34,433 nt of DNA from a bacterium (GTDB lineage Bacteria > JAMOTN01), in assembly GCA_027062325.1 (NCBI GenBank), contig JAMOTN010000044.1:1-34433 (forward strand). The letters run 5' to 3'. The notes beneath the pieces are model-generated. The model was given only the letters and a program-made list of their open reading frames with translations, was not told the DNA's origin and did not search any database. The translations under genes were made by a program, and so were the position numbers. The first letter of the stretch is position 1, and the number at the start of each line of letters is the position of its first letter. Below are positions 55 to 34,433 of the stretch, piece after piece.

Positions 55-627
55 ATGGTTTTTATAGGGCGCGAGCGCGAGATAGGTTGGATGAGGCTGT
101 ATTTGGAACATGAGGCGAATAAGATTTTGGCGGTGACGGGCAAGGCGAACTGCGGCAAAACTGCGCTTATGCAGGAAGTGATGAAAAGGCTTGGTGCGAC
201 GCACACGTTTTTTTATCTTGATTTGCGATTGCTTGATGTATCAGCCCCAGAAGATTTTGTGAAGGTTTTGTTGTATCTACTACGCCTTGCACGCCGCGAG
301 CAGAATTTTATAAGGAGGCTGTTCAACGGAAGCAAGTTTGAGTTTAGTGTGATGGGGTTTAAAGTGTCAAGGGATGTGAAGTTTGAGGATGTATTGCAGG
401 AGCTTTATCTTGCGTTGATAGAGGAGTTAAAGAAGGTGAAAACTCCTGTGATAGTGGTTGATGAGCTGCAGAGTTTAAGAGAACTTTATTACAACGGAGG
501 GAAAAAGCTTATAGACAGCGTATTGGAATTTTTCATTTCGATCACGAAGCACCAGCACTTAGCGCACGTAATTGTTCTTACCTCAGACAGCACGTTTTAT
601 GCGGAACTTTATTCGAAATCTGGGATG
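55..627 (+). repeat. Direct repeat, left copy (5' two thirds of ATPase gene 1)
   Basis: This segment matches 1085-1657 at an offset of exactly 1,030 bases with no gaps. I count about 15 substitutions by eye over 573 bases, most of them in the last 100 bases. Similarity reaches a few bases upstream through the GAGGTGA leader and collapses right after the codons for YSKSGM. Confidence 0.85.
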
Positions 628-1029
628 CACGAGAGGATGAAGTTTTACTTGCTGGATGAACTGGATCGTGCGGAGGCAATGGAGCTTATTTGTTATTACT
701 GCGAAGAATACGAGGTGGATATTAAGCCGGAACGGATTTATCGCTACACAGGTGGGAATCCTGCGTTGATAGAGACGGTGGTATCAGAGGCAGCGCGTCT
801 TGGTTTTAGGAAAGCGGTTGAGTTGAAGAAAGGATATTTGAAGGATTACATAGCGACGTATGCGGAGGAGAAGAAGCTTGAGTTGAAGGAGTTGGAGAAG
901 CTGAGGAAGGAGGAAGGACAAGCGTGGGTAGATGCGAATGTGTTGTTTTACAATGTAGAGACTGCGGAGTTTGAGTTTCAGCACCGGATGATGGAGCTAG
1001 CGTGGAATGAGTTGCTGGGTGAGTCCTGA
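55..1029 (+). CDS. Archaeal-type (MNS/STAND-like) ATPase, tandem copy 1
   Basis: 324-residue P-loop ATPase of the archaeal ATPase type. Visible motifs: the N-terminal FIGRERE signature (residues 3-9), Walker A GKANCGKT (29-36), a hydrophobic strand ending in DE (VIVVDE, 132-137) as Walker B, a sensor-like VIVLTSDS (172-179) and the family's GGNP motif (233-236). The C-terminal part ends with a short NVLFYNV...QHR...ELAW segment that could be a winged helix. No membrane segment or signal peptide, so cytosolic. The ATG has GAGGTGA upstream. Family members act as signal-transducing NTPase switches, some in defence or plasmid systems; the function here is unknown. A near-identical paralogue follows after 55 bases. 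The first two thirds match that copy almost base for base while the last third does not. Codons richer in GCG/CGC than the neighbouring groE genes hint at a different origin. Confident on family, not on role. Confidence 0.85.
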   Translation: MVFIGREREIGWMRLYLEHEANKILAVTGKANCGKTALMQEVMKRLGATHTFFYLDLRLLDVSAPEDFVKVLLYLLRLARREQNFIRRLFNGSKFEFSVMGFKVSRDVKFEDVLQELYLALIEELKKVKTPVIVVDELQSLRELYYNGGKKLIDSVLEFFISITKHQHLAHVIVLTSDSTFYAELYSKSGMHERMKFYLLDELDRAEAMELICYYCEEYEVDIKPERIYRYTGGNPALIETVVSEAARLGFRKAVELKKGYLKDYIATYAEEKKLELKELEKLRKEEGQAWVDANVLFYNVETAEFEFQHRMMELAWNELLGES

Positions 1030-1084
1030 TGGTGTCTATCGGCCACCCCCTTCATCACTCCTGCTGCTTGTGAGGTGAAAATTA

Positions 1085-1657
1085 ATGGTGTTTATAGGGC
1101 GCGAGCGTGAGATAGGTTGGATGAGGCTGTATTTGGAACATGAGGCGAATAAGATTTTGGCGGTGACGGGCAAGGCGAACTGCGGCAAAACTGCGCTTAT
1201 GCAGGAAGTGATGAAAAGGCTTGGTGCGACGCACACGTTTTTTTACCTTGATTTGCGATTGCTTGATGTATCAGCCCCAGAAGATTTTGTGAAGGTTTTG
1301 TTGTATCTACTACGCCTTGCACGCCGCGAGCAGAATTTTATAAGGAGGCTGTTCAACGGAAGCAGGTTTGAGTTTAGTGTGATGGGGTTTAAAGTGTCAA
1401 GGGATGTGAAGTTTGAGGATGTATTGCAGGAGCTTTATCTTGCGTTGATAGAGGAGTTAAAGAAGGTGAAAAATCCTGTGATAGTGGTTGATGAGCTGCA
1501 GAGTTTAAGAGAACTTTATTACAACGGGGGGAAAAAGCTTATAGACAGCGTATTGGAGTTTTTTATCTCACTCACGAAACACCAGCACTTAGCGCACGTC
1601 ATTGTCCTTACCTCAGACAGCACGTTTTATGCGGAGCTTTATTCGAAATCTGGGATG
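1085..1657 (+). repeat. Direct repeat, right copy (5' two thirds of ATPase gene 2)
   Basis: Right-hand partner of the 55-627 repeat. In the first ~470 bases only about six substitutions are seen, several of them synonymous; a cluster of mostly third-position changes follows, then the sequences become clearly different. The sharp boundary inside the gene is what gene conversion or recombination would leave. Confidence 0.85.
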
Positions 1658-2062
1658 GAGAAGCGGATGAGGTTTTATTTGCTGGATGAGTTGCAACGCG
1701 AAGAGGCGATGGAACTTATCCGATACTGGAGCAGGGAGTATGATGTGGAGCTTGATCCTGAAGGTGTTTACAACTACACAGGGGGGAATCCTGCTTTGAT
1801 AGAGGATATAGTGGCTAAGGTGGCGCTTTATGGGGAGTTTGAAGATGTGGTAAAAGATGAGTTGAGGATGGCAAGTGCGAAGATAAAACGTCTAATCAAG
1901 AAAGGTTTTAGTTTCAAGAGGATAGAGGAGATGGAGTATGAAGAGGGTCAAGAATGGGTGGAAGAGAATGTGCTGTTTTACAACGTGCAGAAGGAGTGCT
2001 TTGAGCCACAGCACCGGATAATTGAATTGGCGTGGGGGGAAGTGTTAAAGGTAAGAAAATAG
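1085..2062 (+). CDS. Archaeal-type (MNS/STAND-like) ATPase, tandem copy 2
   Basis: 325-residue paralogue of the gene just upstream, with the same FIGRERE start, Walker A GKANCGKT, Walker B VIVVDE, sensor VIVLTSDS and GGNP motifs at matching positions. Up to about residue 191 the two proteins differ at only a handful of positions; after the shared YSKSGM they diverge sharply, keeping FYLLDEL, EAMELI, YTGGNPALIE and the terminal NVLFYNV...QHR...ELAW framework. The ATG lies behind GTGAGGTGA, a duplicated leader. The pattern implies duplication followed by gene conversion of the NTPase half, or domain shuffling of the C-terminal half. The C-terminal third presumably recognises a partner or ligand (inference). 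No accessory gene nearby explains the role. Confidence 0.85.
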   Translation: MVFIGREREIGWMRLYLEHEANKILAVTGKANCGKTALMQEVMKRLGATHTFFYLDLRLLDVSAPEDFVKVLLYLLRLARREQNFIRRLFNGSRFEFSVMGFKVSRDVKFEDVLQELYLALIEELKKVKNPVIVVDELQSLRELYYNGGKKLIDSVLEFFISLTKHQHLAHVIVLTSDSTFYAELYSKSGMEKRMRFYLLDELQREEAMELIRYWSREYDVELDPEGVYNYTGGNPALIEDIVAKVALYGEFEDVVKDELRMASAKIKRLIKKGFSFKRIEEMEYEEGQEWVEENVLFYNVQKECFEPQHRIIELAWGEVLKVRK

Positions 2063-28681: not shown

Positions 28682-28733
28682 AGGTGAAAGTGGATTGCTT
28701 TAGTTGAATTTAGTATTGGGTAGGGAGGAGTTT

Positions 28734-31700
28734 ATGAGGGAAGAAGCTCTTGTGAAGATGTTTGATGAGTCAAAGCTTGAGGAGAAACTAAAGCTTCTAG
28801 ATAAATATTCATCACGAGATGATGGGTTAGAGCTTTTGTTTAAAGCTGCAGAGGATAAGCATCCGTTAGTAAGAGAGAAGGCAATTCAAGCGCTTGCACG
28901 CTGGACAACTTCACAGGTGAGTGAGTTTTTGTCTAGAAGATTAGATGACAGTAATCACAGGGTTAAGCTTGCTGTGGTAAAGGCGTTGTCTCAAATTGGT
29001 GATGATACAGCGGTTGTTGCTCTCATCAGAGCTTTAGGAGATGAAGCTTTTGATGTTAGGAAAGAAGCTATAGAGGCTTTGGCTAAGATAAAGGATGAAA
29101 GGGCGTTGAAAGATTTAGAAGCGCGATTAGATGTGGCAGAGGCAACGGAAGCTGTTTGCATTTTAAAGGCTATCTCTGAGATAGGTGGCATGGTTGAAGT
29201 ATCTAAAGTGTCGAAATTCTTGAACAATATGCAGGTTTTGGAAAGGTTAATCGATTTTGTTGGTTATTCATATGAGATATTTACAGAAGTTTTAAAGAGG
29301 TTTGATCTTCTCACCGATGAGGCTAAGGCAAAGTTCATAGGTGAATGTGCGCGTGTAGGTTTTGTTCTGCCGCGCGAGATAGAGGAAAAGTTGTTTGAAA
29401 GTGAGCATTATCTTGTGCGTGTAGCAGTTGTTGAATACTTGGCATTGCGTGGAGATTTATCATTTGCAGAGCGCTTTGTGGTGGATGATCACGTCGAAGT
29501 CAGAAAAAAAGTTGCTTACGTTTTAAAAAACTTTGGTGAGATGGCGTTAACTTATTTGAGAAAGCTTATTAAAGATGAGAGCTTCGTAGTTAGGAATGTT
29601 GCGGCGATATCTTTGGCCTCAGTTGCAGGTGATGATGAATTTGTAGAGGATATTGATAGAATAGATAATTTTTCTGTTGATGCTAGAACTGCTGTTGCAA
29701 AGGCTCTGGCTCGGATTGCTACGCAGCGCAGTGTTGAACTTTTAAAGTGCTTGATTAAAGATGGTGCTCCTGTGGTTAGAGCAGAAGCGGTTAAAGCTTT
29801 GGGGCGTATAGGGACTAAAGAGCTGGTTTCAATAATAGTTCAAGCGCTTTCGGATGAATCCAGTCTTGTTAGGTTGGAGGCTGTTAATGCTCTTGCAAAT
29901 ATAGGTTCTCAAGAGGCAATTGTTCAGTTGACGGTTGCTTTGAAGGACAAGAGTGAAGAGGTTAGGGAAAGAGCAGCTCAGATTTTACACAGTTTTGGTA
30001 AGACGACGTTTTACTCGCACCTTGAGTTGTCGCGGCTTTATTTTGAAAGGGAAGAGTGGGAGGTTGCGATTGAAGAGGCTTCTAAGGTTTTGGAGATTGA
30101 ACCTTATAATGTGGAGGCACGTAAAATTATAGGTTTTTCGTGGTATAAGTTAGGTAAGGCTGCTAAAGCTTTTGATTGGTTACTTGAATGTGTGGATAAG
30201 CTAAATGTTGATGAAAAATTGAAATTTGTGGATGTTGCTTTGGAAGTGGGGCGTGTTGAAAAGGCAGCTGATATTCTTGAAGAAGCTTTGAGTACGGATT
30301 ATCGATTAGATGTGTCTATTAAACTTTTAGATGTTTATTTGAAAATGGGAATTCTTGGTAAGGCAAAAGATCTCATAAATACCTTAAAATTGGAAGGAGT
30401 GGATACCTCATATTGGGAGGCTAAGTTGTATTTAGAAGAAGGAAAACTTGATGCAGCTTTAAAGGTTGCAAAAGAGAATGATTATTGGGATGTTATAACT
30501 GAGGTTGCTCTCCGTAAAAGAGACACTGAACAGATAATAAAACTTTTGGAAAAGGATATTCCAGCTTCTGCGTTAGAGAGAATTGCTGAATGGATACTTC
30601 AAAATGATGCGAGAGATTTAATGGAGAGATTTACTAGAGCGGTTATTCCTTCAAATGATGTTTTGAAAAAGTATATGGCAATATTCTACCGCAAGTTAGA
30701 AAAGTTTGTTTACGAGTACAAAATTTTGAAGGAGTTACCATTTGATAATGACAGGCTTTCTTATCTTGCTGTGGAGTTCAGAGAAGTTGGGGAGGTTGTT
30801 CCTGAAGAAGAGTTAAAAGGGAAAATTTTATACAGGTATTTGGCGTGGAAGGGAGATTGGAAGAGATTAGCTTCTTTTGTGGCTAAAAATGATAAGGATA
30901 GTTTTCTATATTATCTAAAAGCCCTTGCTAGAGATTATAACTTTGAAAAGTTAAAAGATGAAGCAAGAGGTGAAGTTGCAGAGTTTGTACTGGCTGTTTA
31001 TACAAATATTTCACAAGCTGCTGAGTTTTTAAGAAGGCAACCTGCATATTGGCGAATTTTGGAGAGAGATGAGAAGATACCAATTTTGTATGTGATGAGT
31101 GAGGAAGATGTAGATGAGTTGCCTATGGATTTTGAGGATGTGTGCTGGTTCAAGTACCTTAAAACTTCTAAGATAGACGATTACCTTGAGGATTTAATGG
31201 CTTATAGACAGCAGGAAAAGAGAATGGTGGATGTGTTGTTTGGAAAGGTTAGTGCAACGATAGAAGATATTGAATGGTTATTGAGATTTGATGCTAAGAC
31301 AGTTGCGGACTGTATTAGTGTGGAAGTGCTTGAAGAGCTAGATGGTGATGAGATTTTAAGTTTTGGACGTTTGGGGGAAGTTGCAACTGTTTTTATGGAT
31401 AAATTAGCATATGCAGCTTGCAATTTGGGACTGTGGGATAAATGTTCGAGTTGGGCGAGAGGGGAATTGAAGCTCAAGGCTTTGTTTGAGCAGAAAAGAT
31501 ATGAGGATGTTGTAAAAGAGGCAGAAAAGTTGTTAGCTGAAGGGACTGAGTTAAGTAGAACTATAAGAGTTTTAGTAGCGCTTTCTTATGCCAAGCTTGG
31601 AAATTGGCATAGGGCGCATTCTCTTATTACGAAGGAAGAAGCGGTGGAAGAAGGTTTAGGAGTTGAATGGGCAGAGTGGGCGTATAGAGTTGGTAAGAAG

Positions 31701-34433
31701 CATTTGGCTCGCGAAGTGTTGGTTGAGTTGAATGAGTGGGAGAGAGTTTATGAACTGGCAAAAAGGGAAGAGGATTGGGAGTTGCTGTATCATGCTCTTG
31801 CTGAGTTGTATAAGGTTAATGATAAATATTCATTAGAATACGAAAAAATTGTTTTCTTTCGTGATGATGAAGAAGCTGCCAAGAAGATTTACCAAAAGAC
31901 TAATGATGAATGGTTGTTAAGGGTAATAAAGGCTGTTAAATATGCAGAGTTTACAGAAGATGAAACAGCAGAGAACCTTAAAGGTGACTCTTTGTGGCAA
32001 AAGGTTTATAACGCTTTAAGAGGAACAAGAGTGGTTCCAGATTTACCTGAGGATGTAAAAAAGAGAGTAGAACTAATAAATATGTGGAGAAATGATGAGT
32101 GTAAACGTTTTGAAAAAGAAGCACTAGCTTGGTTAGAGAGACATCCGTTTGATGAAAGAATTAGATTTCAATTTTTTGCTTGTGTGGGGGAGATAAATTC
32201 GCTTTATAAATACGTAGATATATATGTTCCAGAGGCTGCTGTGGTGATAGCTAGGATGTATATAAAGAAGAAGCGTTGGAAAGATGCAGAAAAACTCCTT
32301 GCACGCTTTAAAGATTACTCAAGTGTGAAAAAACTTTATGCTTATGTACTTTATCAAGAAGGGAAGTTCAACGAGGCACTACGCGTGTTGGATGATATTA
32401 AGGAAGAGGATGATGTGAAGCTTTTGAAGGCTAGAATTTACTACTTGGCAGGTGAATTTGAAAAGGCTAGTAAGTATTATTGTGAACTTTACGGGAAGTT
32501 GACCTCTGCAGAAGTTTACGAACGATGCGGCGATTGGTGGGTGAAAAGCAGCGATTATCTAAGAGCAAAGGAAGCTTATGAAAAAGCATATGCCTTGACT
32601 CCAACTGCTTATTTAGCTGCTAAATTAGGGGGCGTTTACAGGATCCTTGGGGATTTGGAAAAAGCAGCATTTTATTATCGTAAAGGGAAAGATTATCTTT
32701 CTGCTGCAGATTGCTATGTTGAAATGGGAGAACTTGAGGATGCGTTAGAAACATTGATTCCAGAGGTTGAGATGGCTAATCCAGAAGCTGTTGAATTGGC
32801 CTTTAAAATTGCCTCCCAACTTCAAAAATGGGATTTTATTCTGAAATATGAAAACTTCGCTACAACTCCTGCTGCTCAAGTTTATGCTGCTCTTGCCAAT
32901 GTTGAAGCAGCAGATCCCGAAAGGGCTTTGTTATTGATAAAAGATCTCCCAGATTCGGCTGAACTTGATTATTTGAAGGGAAAAGCTCATTTTAAACTGG
33001 GAGAGTGGAAAGAGGCAGTATATCATTTTGAGAGAGCTTATAAAGAATTAGAAGGGGATAACTACTTGAAGTATTTATTTGCAGTGAGCCTTAAGAATTT
33101 TGGGGATTTTGATAGGTCAGAGAAACTATTTGAGGAACTATTGAAGACAGAATTTGATGAGCAGGCTCAGTTAAATTTGGCGCAGATTTGGGAAAAGTTT
33201 GGCAAATGGGATAAGGTCATATTGCTAGATGATGAAAAAGTTTTGAAGTTTAAGGCTAAGGCTCTGTTTAAACTTGGGAAGTTTAAGGAATTTTTGAGTC
33301 TTGTTGAAGGGCGGTTTGAAGATGAATTTATTGAGGAGTTGAAAGAGGTTTATTATCGCTTAGGAAATGTTGAAAAGTTGAAGGAGATTTATTTTAAGAC
33401 TAAGGATTCCAAGTTAGCAGTTAGAATAGCTGAAGTATTGATACGTCTTGAGAGGTACGATGAGGCAGATAGAGTTTTGAAAAGTATTCCAGATGATCCG
33501 TATGTAATGCTGTTGAGAGGAAGAATTGCAAGAAAAAGAGGCAAGATATCGGAAGCTATAAGTTACCTCAGAAAAGCTGAAATGGCAGGAGTTGAGGGAG
33601 TATATTACGAGCTTGGGAAAGTTGCTCTTTTGAGAAAAGATATTAATCAGGCAATAAGTTACTTTGAAAGAAGCTTAGAGGTACACCCTTCTGTAGTTGA
33701 TGCTAAGAAGGAGCTTGGAAAGTTAGTTGGAGGAGAAAAGGGATTTGAGCTGCTGCTTTCTTATTGGAGAGATAGAAAGGATAAGGAAGTTGTGCCTATT
33801 CTTTTGAGTTTAGCTTTAGAGCTTGGAAAAGAGGCTGAGGTGAGGGAAGTAATTGAGTATCACTCTTGGCGTGGAGGATTGTCAAGTAGGATTTATGAGA
33901 GGCTTGGGGAATTTGAAAAGGCTGCAATGTGCCTAAATGATGATGGAGAAGAGGGAGAGAGAAAAGTAGAGCTGCTTTTGAAAGCTGGAAAAGTTGAAGA
34001 GGCAAAAAAATTGGCTTTGGAAAAGGGGATAAAGAGTGGTTGGAAAATAGTGAGGAAAGAGCGGGACTTTGAATTTGCCAAGCTTTTAGACTCTAGGGGA
34101 ATACCATGCGAGGATAAAGAGTTGTATGTTGAGTTTTTAAATTGGAAGGGTGATTATGAAGGAGTGATAAGGTATTGTGAGAAAGAAGGTTTAAAAAATA
34201 GCCAATACTTTGTAAAGGCATTGTTGGAAGTTGGAAGGGGAAAAGAAGCGGTTGAACTTGCAAGGAGGATGGGATACGATAACTTGGCAAAAGATATAGT
34301 GGAGAAGCTAGCAAGAGTGAGTTTGGAGAATAGGATGTGGAAGGAAGCGGTAGATCTTGCAAATAGACTGGAGGGTAAGGATAAATACCTAATATTGTAC
34401 GAAGTTGGTAAAAAAGTGGTAGTGCCAACTTGG
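28734..34433 (+). CDS. Giant HEAT-TPR solenoid protein, 3' end outside window
   Basis: One open frame of 1,900 codons without a stop, running off the window. ATG 28734 follows AGGGAGGAG. Residues 1 to about 420 are HEAT repeats (DVRKEAIEALAKI, VVRAEAVKALGRIG, LVRLEAVNALANIG, EVRERAAQILHSFG). From about residue 423 (SHLELSRLYFEREEWEVAIEEASKVLEIEPYNVEARKIIGFSWYKLGKAAKAFDWL) it becomes a TPR or TPR-like helical array that continues to the last visible codon, with clear repeats such as ALEKAYALTPTAYLAAKLGGVYRILGDLEKAAFYYRKG-type units near 1285-1330 and others near 1620-1660. No signal peptide, transmembrane segment or enzymatic motif was seen, so it is probably a cytosolic scaffold. Function unknown. 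Confidence 0.9.
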   Translation, partial: MREEALVKMFDESKLEEKLKLLDKYSSRDDGLELLFKAAEDKHPLVREKAIQALARWTTSQVSEFLSRRLDDSNHRVKLAVVKALSQIGDDTAVVALIRALGDEAFDVRKEAIEALAKIKDERALKDLEARLDVAEATEAVCILKAISEIGGMVEVSKVSKFLNNMQVLERLIDFVGYSYEIFTEVLKRFDLLTDEAKAKFIGECARVGFVLPREIEEKLFESEHYLVRVAVVEYLALRGDLSFAERFVVDDHVEVRKKVAYVLKNFGEMALTYLRKLIKDESFVVRNVAAISLASVAGDDEFVEDIDRIDNFSVDARTAVAKALARIATQRSVELLKCLIKDGAPVVRAEAVKALGRIGTKELVSIIVQALSDESSLVRLEAVNALANIGSQEAIVQLTVALKDKSEEVRERAAQILHSFGKTTFYSHLELSRLYFEREEWEVAIEEASKVLEIEPYNVEARKIIGFSWYKLGKAAKAFDWLLECVDKLNVDEKLKFVDVALEVGRVEKAADILEEALSTDYRLDVSIKLLDVYLKMGILGKAKDLINTLKLEGVDTSYWEAKLYLEEGKLDAALKVAKENDYWDVITEVALRKRDTEQIIKLLEKDIPASALERIAEWILQNDARDLMERFTRAVIPSNDVLKKYMAIFYRKLEKFVYEYKILKELPFDNDRLSYLAVEFREVGEVVPEEELKGKILYRYLAWKGDWKRLASFVAKNDKDSFLYYLKALARDYNFEKLKDEARGEVAEFVLAVYTNISQAAEFLRRQPAYWRILERDEKIPILYVMSEEDVDELPMDFEDVCWFKYLKTSKIDDYLEDLMAYRQQEKRMVDVLFGKVSATIEDIEWLLRFDAKTVADCISVEVLEELDGDEILSFGRLGEVATVFMDKLAYAACNLGLWDKCSSWARGELKLKALFEQKRYEDVVKEAEKLLAEGTELSRTIRVLVALSYAKLGNWHRAHSLITKEEAVEEGLGVEWAEWAYRVGKKHLAREVLVELNEWERVYELAKREEDWELLYHALAELYKVNDKYSLEYEKIVFFRDDEEAAKKIYQKTNDEWLLRVIKAVKYAEFTEDETAENLKGDSLWQKVYNALRGTRVVPDLPEDVKKRVELINMWRNDECKRFEKEALAWLERHPFDERIRFQFFACVGEINSLYKYVDIYVPEAAVVIARMYIKKKRWKDAEKLLARFKDYSSVKKLYAYVLYQEGKFNEALRVLDDIKEEDDVKLLKARIYYLAGEFEKASKYYCELYGKLTSAEVYERCGDWWVKSSDYLRAKEAYEKAYALTPTAYLAAKLGGVYRILGDLEKAAFYYRKGKDYLSAADCYVEMGELEDALETLIPEVEMANPEAVELAFKIASQLQKWDFILKYENFATTPAAQVYAALANVEAADPERALLLIKDLPDSAELDYLKGKAHFKLGEWKEAVYHFERAYKELEGDNYLKYLFAVSLKNFGDFDRSEKLFEELLKTEFDEQAQLNLAQIWEKFGKWDKVILLDDEKVLKFKAKALFKLGKFKEFLSLVEGRFEDEFIEELKEVYYRLGNVEKLKEIYFKTKDSKLAVRIAEVLIRLERYDEADRVLKSIPDDPYVMLLRGRIARKRGKISEAISYLRKAEMAGVEGVYYELGKVALLRKDINQAISYFERSLEVHPSVVDAKKELGKLVGGEKGFELLLSYWRDRKDKEVVPILLSLALELGKEAEVREVIEYHSWRGGLSSRIYERLGEFEKAAMCLNDDGEEGERKVELLLKAGKVEEAKKLALEKGIKSGWKIVRKERDFEFAKLLDSRGIPCEDKELYVEFLNWKGDYEGVIRYCEKEGLKNSQYFVKALLEVGRGKEAVELARRMGYDNLAKDIVEKLARVSLENRMWKEAVDLANRLEGKDKYLILYEVGKKVVVPTW

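Follow-up and report, generated by a model that had tools for sequence, protein, structure and literature searches.

The first two genes of the window, the bacterial contig of 34,433 nucleotides (C44, taken in its entirety) analyzed here, encode adjacent ATPases that are built as mosaics of fixed and exchangeable parts. Judging from sequence comparisons, we consider it likely, with a probability of roughly 0.8, that they belong to a multi-copy, probably horizontally acquired MJ-type (PF01637) family, in which a fixed frame carries two cassettes that are exchanged between copies by homologous recombination. The alignments establish the mosaic structure, the reassortment of its parts, the constraint on the fixed blocks and the recurrence of this architecture in a second lineage of bacteria.

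Two adjacent ATPase genes diverge in steps

Both open reading frames were confirmed as real.

55–1029, + strand: ATPase copy 1, 324 aa, PF01637, mosaic type alpha-a
1085–2062, + strand: ATPase copy 2, 325 aa, PF01637, mosaic type alpha-b

The two proteins matched the PF01637 profile (ATPase_2, archaeal ATPase) with 132.4 and 136 bits, as compared to the curated Pfam cut-off of 33.2, and covered positions 1–225 and 1–224 of its 225 positions. They carry the sequences GKANCGKT (aa 29–36) and VIVVDE (aa 132–137), which we take to be Walker A and Walker B. In signaling NTPases of the STAND class, the NTPase is followed by a winged helix and then by a long sensor domain of repeats or an effector domain. 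For the window ATPases, matches to nSTAND1 stayed under the cut-off (22 and 23.7 bits vs 27.1), the proteins end about 80 aa beyond the Pfam domain, and the hits included no repeat or effector domain. Structure prediction of the two window proteins by AlphaFold2, including the C-terminal third singled out by the preliminary description, used only these two sequences as input and reached a mean pLDDT of 48.9, too low for a fold search.

According to the preliminary description, the two genes match at about 97% of bases over 573 positions and then diverge abruptly at the same codon. The identity was reproduced (558 of 573 positions, 15 differences, 97.4%) and a strong change does occur within the gene; however, the divergence is stepped rather than a single jump, with 6 differences in gene nucleotides 1–473, 15 in the next 132 nucleotides and 160 in the remaining 367. 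A breakpoint had been placed near window positions 627/1657; the best single break was found at gene nucleotide 606 (window 660/1690), with an equally strong one in 0 of 1000 shuffles. Synonymous divergence (dS) between the copies amounted to 0.07 for aa 1–46, 0.02 for aa 47–129, 0.06 for aa 130–155, 0.56 for aa 156–186 and 1.87 for aa 192–324. These values over five blocks reject a uniform clock, and drift at a uniform rate along the gene is ruled out. The picture of a conserved NTPase half turned out to be incomplete, as a second exchangeable cassette (aa 47–129) sits between Walker A and Walker B. This cassette is masked in the window pair and becomes visible only when other copies are aligned.

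Further copies carry reassorted cassettes on a fixed frame

The source genome comprises 1.65 Mb in 81 contigs and is 83.9% (83.87%) complete; among the 40 nearest genomes compared it stands alone, sharing only the domain with them. A protein search of this genome returned five places, namely the two window genes and the following copies:

C43:95–1048: complete gene
C17, at the contig end: 282-codon piece
C14, at the contig end: 92-codon piece

A sixth gene is represented by its final ~10 codons (...LAWNELLKA, then stop), which open contig C43 (DNA match C43:6–100). Counting pieces, the genome thus has at least four further copies outside the window, and three of these lie at contig ends. Because contigs end inside or beside copies, more copies are probably missing from the assembly.

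When aligned, the copies of the source genome proved to be four-part mosaics, in which two constant blocks, one with the P-loop and the other with Walker B and the sensor, are each followed by a variable part, in the middle and at the C-terminus, respectively.

55–192 and 1085–1222, + strand: constant N block (aa 1–46) with Walker A, 100% aa identity in the 4 copies having it
193–441 and 1223–1471, + strand: variable middle cassette (aa 47–129), type alpha
520–612 and 1550–1642, + strand: constant core (aa 156–186), FFISxTKHQHLAHVIVLTSDSTFYAELY, 90–97% aa identity among the four copies that have the block
628–1026, + strand: variable C cassette of copy 1, type a, common to the C43 copy with 95% aa identity
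1658–2059, + strand: variable C cassette of copy 2, type b, 48–49% aa identity to type a and 41% to type c

The N block is an identical protein sequence in copy 1, copy 2, C43 and C14, at a synonymous divergence (pS) of 0.52 between copy 1 and C43 and of 0.30–0.55 between distant copies. Identity despite pS values of up to 0.55 points to an old divergence under strong constraint on this fixed block. The middle cassette is of type alpha in copies 1 and 2 and of type beta in C43 and C17, with 28% aa identity between the types, 98.8% within alpha and 98.7% within beta; C14 has a third type, gamma, which over the 32–34 codons compared is 53% identical to alpha and 41% identical to beta. Among the C cassettes (aa 192 to the end), type a occurs in copy 1 and C43, type b in copy 2 and type c in C17, with 41–49% aa identity between types. 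The resulting combinations are alpha-a (copy 1), alpha-b (copy 2), beta-a (C43) and beta-c (C17), so that all four pairings of alpha or not alpha with a or not a occur, which requires recombination. The informative sites group the four genes accordingly: at gene nucleotides 139–387, 105 of 105 sites unite copies 1 and 2 against C43 and C17, and at nucleotides 621–975, 34 of 41 unite copy 1 and C43 against copy 2 and C17, with two sites grouping the first way and five a third way. The grouping changes between nucleotides 468 and 483, and 0 of 2000 permutations gave a break as strong when the gene's 7 third-way sites were excluded. Genes whose grouping differs from one segment to the next, the signature of a gene-conversion mosaic, were found in the source genome as well as in a second genome, G364.

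Gene conversion or segment swapping, as proposed in the preliminary description, is therefore supported by the shared cassettes, the discordant sites and the further copies; the opposite outcome that it had named, no further copies together with uniform drift, is contradicted on both points. A tandem duplication, after which the C-terminal third of one copy diverged faster under relaxed or positive selection and without any exchange, would fit the adjacent position of the window copies and their common N and M blocks. Yet synonymous sites go from a dS of 0.02–0.07 to 1.87 along the gene, copy 1 and C43 have 93% DNA identity in the C cassette but 52% in the middle cassette, and the four-combination test together with the cassettes in common with C43 and C17 refutes this scenario, which we find hardly credible.

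The mosaic pattern is unlikely to arise from misassembly

The mosaics could also be chimaeras generated during assembly of a metagenome bin. The position of copies at contig ends and the completeness of 83.87% would agree with such an origin, as would the first 126 bp of C17, which match C43 exactly, an overlap that looks like the product of a k-mer of 127. Against it, the longest exact match between these copies at the cassette joint is 66 bp, a length that an ordinary short read should span, and the same pattern recurs in G364. We regard chimaeras as very improbable, and as the entire cause of the pattern they are ruled out by the joint lengths together with G364. Longer exact repeats exist elsewhere in the genes, with a stretch of 151 bp common to copy 1 and C43 within the C cassette and one of 137 bp common to copies 1 and 2 in the N block and beyond. 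Owing to these repeats, the assembler could have swapped flanks, making the neighbors of copy 1 and C43 less certain than the genes themselves: the 3' neighbors of copy 1 and C43, or the 5' neighbor of copy 1, could have been exchanged.

A second bacterial lineage has the same architecture

G364 belongs to a phylum other than that of the source genome and has a 1.7 Mb assembly of 4 contigs that is 99% complete. Searching it with its own protein P0003 yielded 16 matches; ten of these were tried as full-length genes, giving 9 intact open reading frames with a P-loop, and the six shorter matches were excluded. In 20-codon windows over the nine intact copies, we observed the fixed and variable layout of the source genome as well as discordant types. 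The pair L056/L057 showed a pS of 0.00 in the P-loop, M and core and of 0.70 in C, L057/L058 a pS of 0.72 in M and 0.04 in C, and L053/L058 a pS of 0.68 in M, 0.00 in the lid and 0.81 in C. Since both architecture and reassortment recur in this genome, the mosaic is no artefact of one assembly.

Matches between the G364 copies start near the start codon and end near the stop codon, as seen in pairs headed by 4 of the 16 loci. For L053 (ORF 1588–2667), no match started before 1548 or ended after 2680; the match between L058 and the broken copy L064/L065 extends further upstream, from 1455. Truncated or broken ATPase copies are found at L061 and L064–L067. L061 is a possible cassette donor; its first 159 residues are missing, and over 441 bp it has 99% identity to L056. 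Among 19 genomes of the same order the gene is present in only 3, two of which have a single copy, and 3 of 25 genomes in the phylum carry it. In an empty-site comparison, the 8 genomes of the G364 genus were too diverged to read insertion edges.

Codon use and genomic setting

As stated in the preliminary description, codon use of the window ATPases is unlike that of the groE genes, with a GC3 of 0.56 (copy 1) and 0.55 (copy 2) vs 0.28 for groES and 0.33 for groEL. These values exceed each of the 16 other window ORFs tested (0.28–0.40), and the five copies or pieces of the source genome range from 0.48 to 0.57 vs 0.25–0.47 in 20 flanking ORFs, some of which are possibly spurious frames. The G364 copies, in turn, have a GC3 of 0.34–0.40, close to their background (mean 0.345, 23 flanking ORFs), and these values do not support biased gene conversion as a general source of raised GC3. 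The atypical GC3 in the source genome fits acquisition from elsewhere, and a foreign origin of its ATPase genes is probably the simpler reading.

Copies 1 and 2 lie directly upstream of groES, groEL, hrcA, grpE and dnaJ (groES and groEL were named from sequence). Only these two copies have heat-shock neighbors; the others are accompanied by sugar-nucleotide epimerase-like, MarC-like membrane protein and lipoprotein-like genes, the names outside the window being read from translations.

1029–1084, + strand: leader of ~55 bp, also at L006:50–94 and at L008:277–330 (- strand); common to copy 2, C43 and C14, absent before copy 1
2248–2277: promoter-like site
2276–2302: inverted repeat TTAGCA-N15-TGCTAA upstream of groES, presumably a CIRCE-like operator; 1 match, 0 in 100 shuffles

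The promoter-like site and the presumed operator separate the ATPases from groES. The leader is more conserved than the synonymous sites of the genes. In copy 2 and C14 it contains, when read by eye, a 14-codon ORF (MVSIGHPLHHSCCL); that of copy 2 starts in a TGATG overlap with the copy 1 stop, and the C43 leader lacks a start codon, both again by eye. Two long frames run off contig ends: an ORF of at least 1910 codons at window 28704–34433, which begins with a HEAT-repeat part and ends with a TPR-repeat part, and a W/G-rich open frame of 900 codons that follows a pilin-like ORF at L006:4033–6732, off the end of C43.

The preliminary description had suggested that the family is perhaps linked to defence or to mobile elements, which found no support from neighbors, PADLOC, phage or viral searches. 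No transposase, integrase or phage genes were recognized beside the copies in the translations read and in a Pfam search of 10 window ORFs. Nevertheless, a mobile or selfish gene that multiplies its own ORF, with the mosaics as a by-product without functional meaning, has a real though minority chance of being the better account. It would explain the patchy distribution (5 of 386 genomes at E≤1e-10, 3 of 25 in the G364 phylum), the unrelated places of the G364 copies with homology confined to the ORF, the atypical GC3 in the source genome and the broken copies in G364. However, a non-exhaustive search around the copies turned up neither a transposase nor inverted repeats nor target duplications, and purifying selection on the fixed blocks is strong, a constraint that a decaying selfish gene would require only as far as its own activity depends on it. 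As a further, quite improbable alternative, the copies might be defence NTPases whose cassettes for phage recognition have been swapped. A fixed motor with exchangeable parts does resemble recognition repertoires, and PADLOC returned weak matches to mad8 and PDC-S27, but these stayed at the level of the shared ATPase domain (~14–31 bits, best 30.9, generic ATPase region), the proteins have no effector domain, and neither a confident model match nor defence neighbors were found, the surrounding genes being ordinary. Phage records searched gave no match, and pattern-limited scans of viral records found none.

Distribution and known relatives

A profile built from four sequences of the source genome matched 6 genomes, the source genome among them, in a broad selection of 386. 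With an eight-sequence profile, 5 of the 386, again including the source genome, had matches at E≤1e-10, with at most 5 candidates per genome scored. Among these 5 genomes, more than one full-length copy occurs just in the source genome and in G364, the two with mosaic families. No third mosaic lineage was found; in the phylum of G235, 2 genomes were examined, with one copy. Locus L103 of genome G104 is a 50-residue N-block match stopped by the contig end, as seen in the source genome, which suggests that further multi-copy genomes exist.

Plasmid records gave matches in the plasmid of Methanocaldococcus jannaschii only, at 3 places. Its genes MJ_RS09025 and MJ_RS09100 show near full-length homology, with 27% identity over 98% of copy 2, and share the constant core with the window ATPases. 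The source genome differs from this plasmid in its bacterial host, its tandem and dispersed near-identical copies and its cassette reassortment. Between the two plasmid copies (31% aa identity), nucleotide-level switching is absent and the core is an ordinary conserved one; this pair was thus rejected as a mosaic lineage and represents ordinary diverged paralogues. As these copies lack switching, reassortment is not universal in the family. With regard to structures, 3h92 (MJECL15) and 3bjo (MJ1010) are isolated M. jannaschii domains that align to the part of the A3 profile with the C cassette, and 2fna matches the N-terminal 149 positions of this profile. The 3h92 match holds by construction, as its sequence is the end of an M. 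jannaschii gene included in A3, and a search with P0002 alone recovered none of these structures at E values up to 10.

VSG and pilin genes are cassette systems that operate via gene conversion, with a fixed frame and exchanged variable parts. Unlike in these systems, neither the source genome nor G364 showed one expression site accompanied by silent donors, and intact ORFs are dispersed. The nearest published parallel is the expanded archaeal-type ATPase families of Galdieria, a hot-spring organism, annotated as 'archaeal/STAND' ATPases, with 211 genes in one strain at subtelomeric positions (PMC6629376, PMC9812998). They have been compared to variable surface gene families, and their HGT origin has been disputed (PMC6629376). 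Galdieria differs in being a eukaryote, and the accessible parts describe no cassette mosaic; we liken the families by description (PMC6629376, PMC9812998). A term search of the available text of PMC6053082, on concerted evolution, found neither ATPase nor mosaic mentioned. The PF01637 family and gene conversion as a process are already known. We found no report of cassette mosaics in these ATPases in the open-access literature searched, where a fixed frame with two exchangeable cassettes, present in two phyla, is unreported.

A proposed fixed motor with renewable cassettes

In the reading that we favor, exchange by homologous recombination, each gene would consist of a fixed frame, formed by the N block with Walker A and the core with the strand after Walker B, and of two exchangeable cassettes, the first located between the Walker motifs and the second at the C-terminus. 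Cassettes would pass between copies most simply by gene conversion starting or ending in the fixed blocks, which we infer to be at work rather than reciprocal crossover. Members of PF01637 are P-loop ATPases. The fixed blocks hold the catalytic motifs, and the constraint extends beyond these motifs; the C-terminal domain has been solved separately in M. jannaschii relatives (3h92, 3bjo). From the free reassortment it follows that no match between the two cassettes is needed. All copies may act as ATP-dependent switches that have one partner or co-assemble via a fixed surface, with the cassettes contacting different targets, and we lean toward a STAND-like sensor or stress role. A broader idea, speculative and in our view unlikely, is that a combinatorial set of ATP-driven switches is maintained in some thermophile-like bacteria, in which a fixed motor surface for co-assembly or a common partner is joined to two independently exchangeable recognition cassettes renewed by gene conversion. 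If true, such a set would be the prokaryotic counterpart of a receptor family diversified by shuffling.

To our knowledge, archaeal-type ATPases are numerous and have no established function. The swapped-cassette families in two unrelated bacteria place the functional variation in two regions, the segment that separates the Walker motifs and the C-terminal domain, and a shared partner surface would be aa 1–46 and 156–191 in the window ATPases. Accordingly, the question of what this orphan family does becomes testable by comparing the constant part with each cassette.
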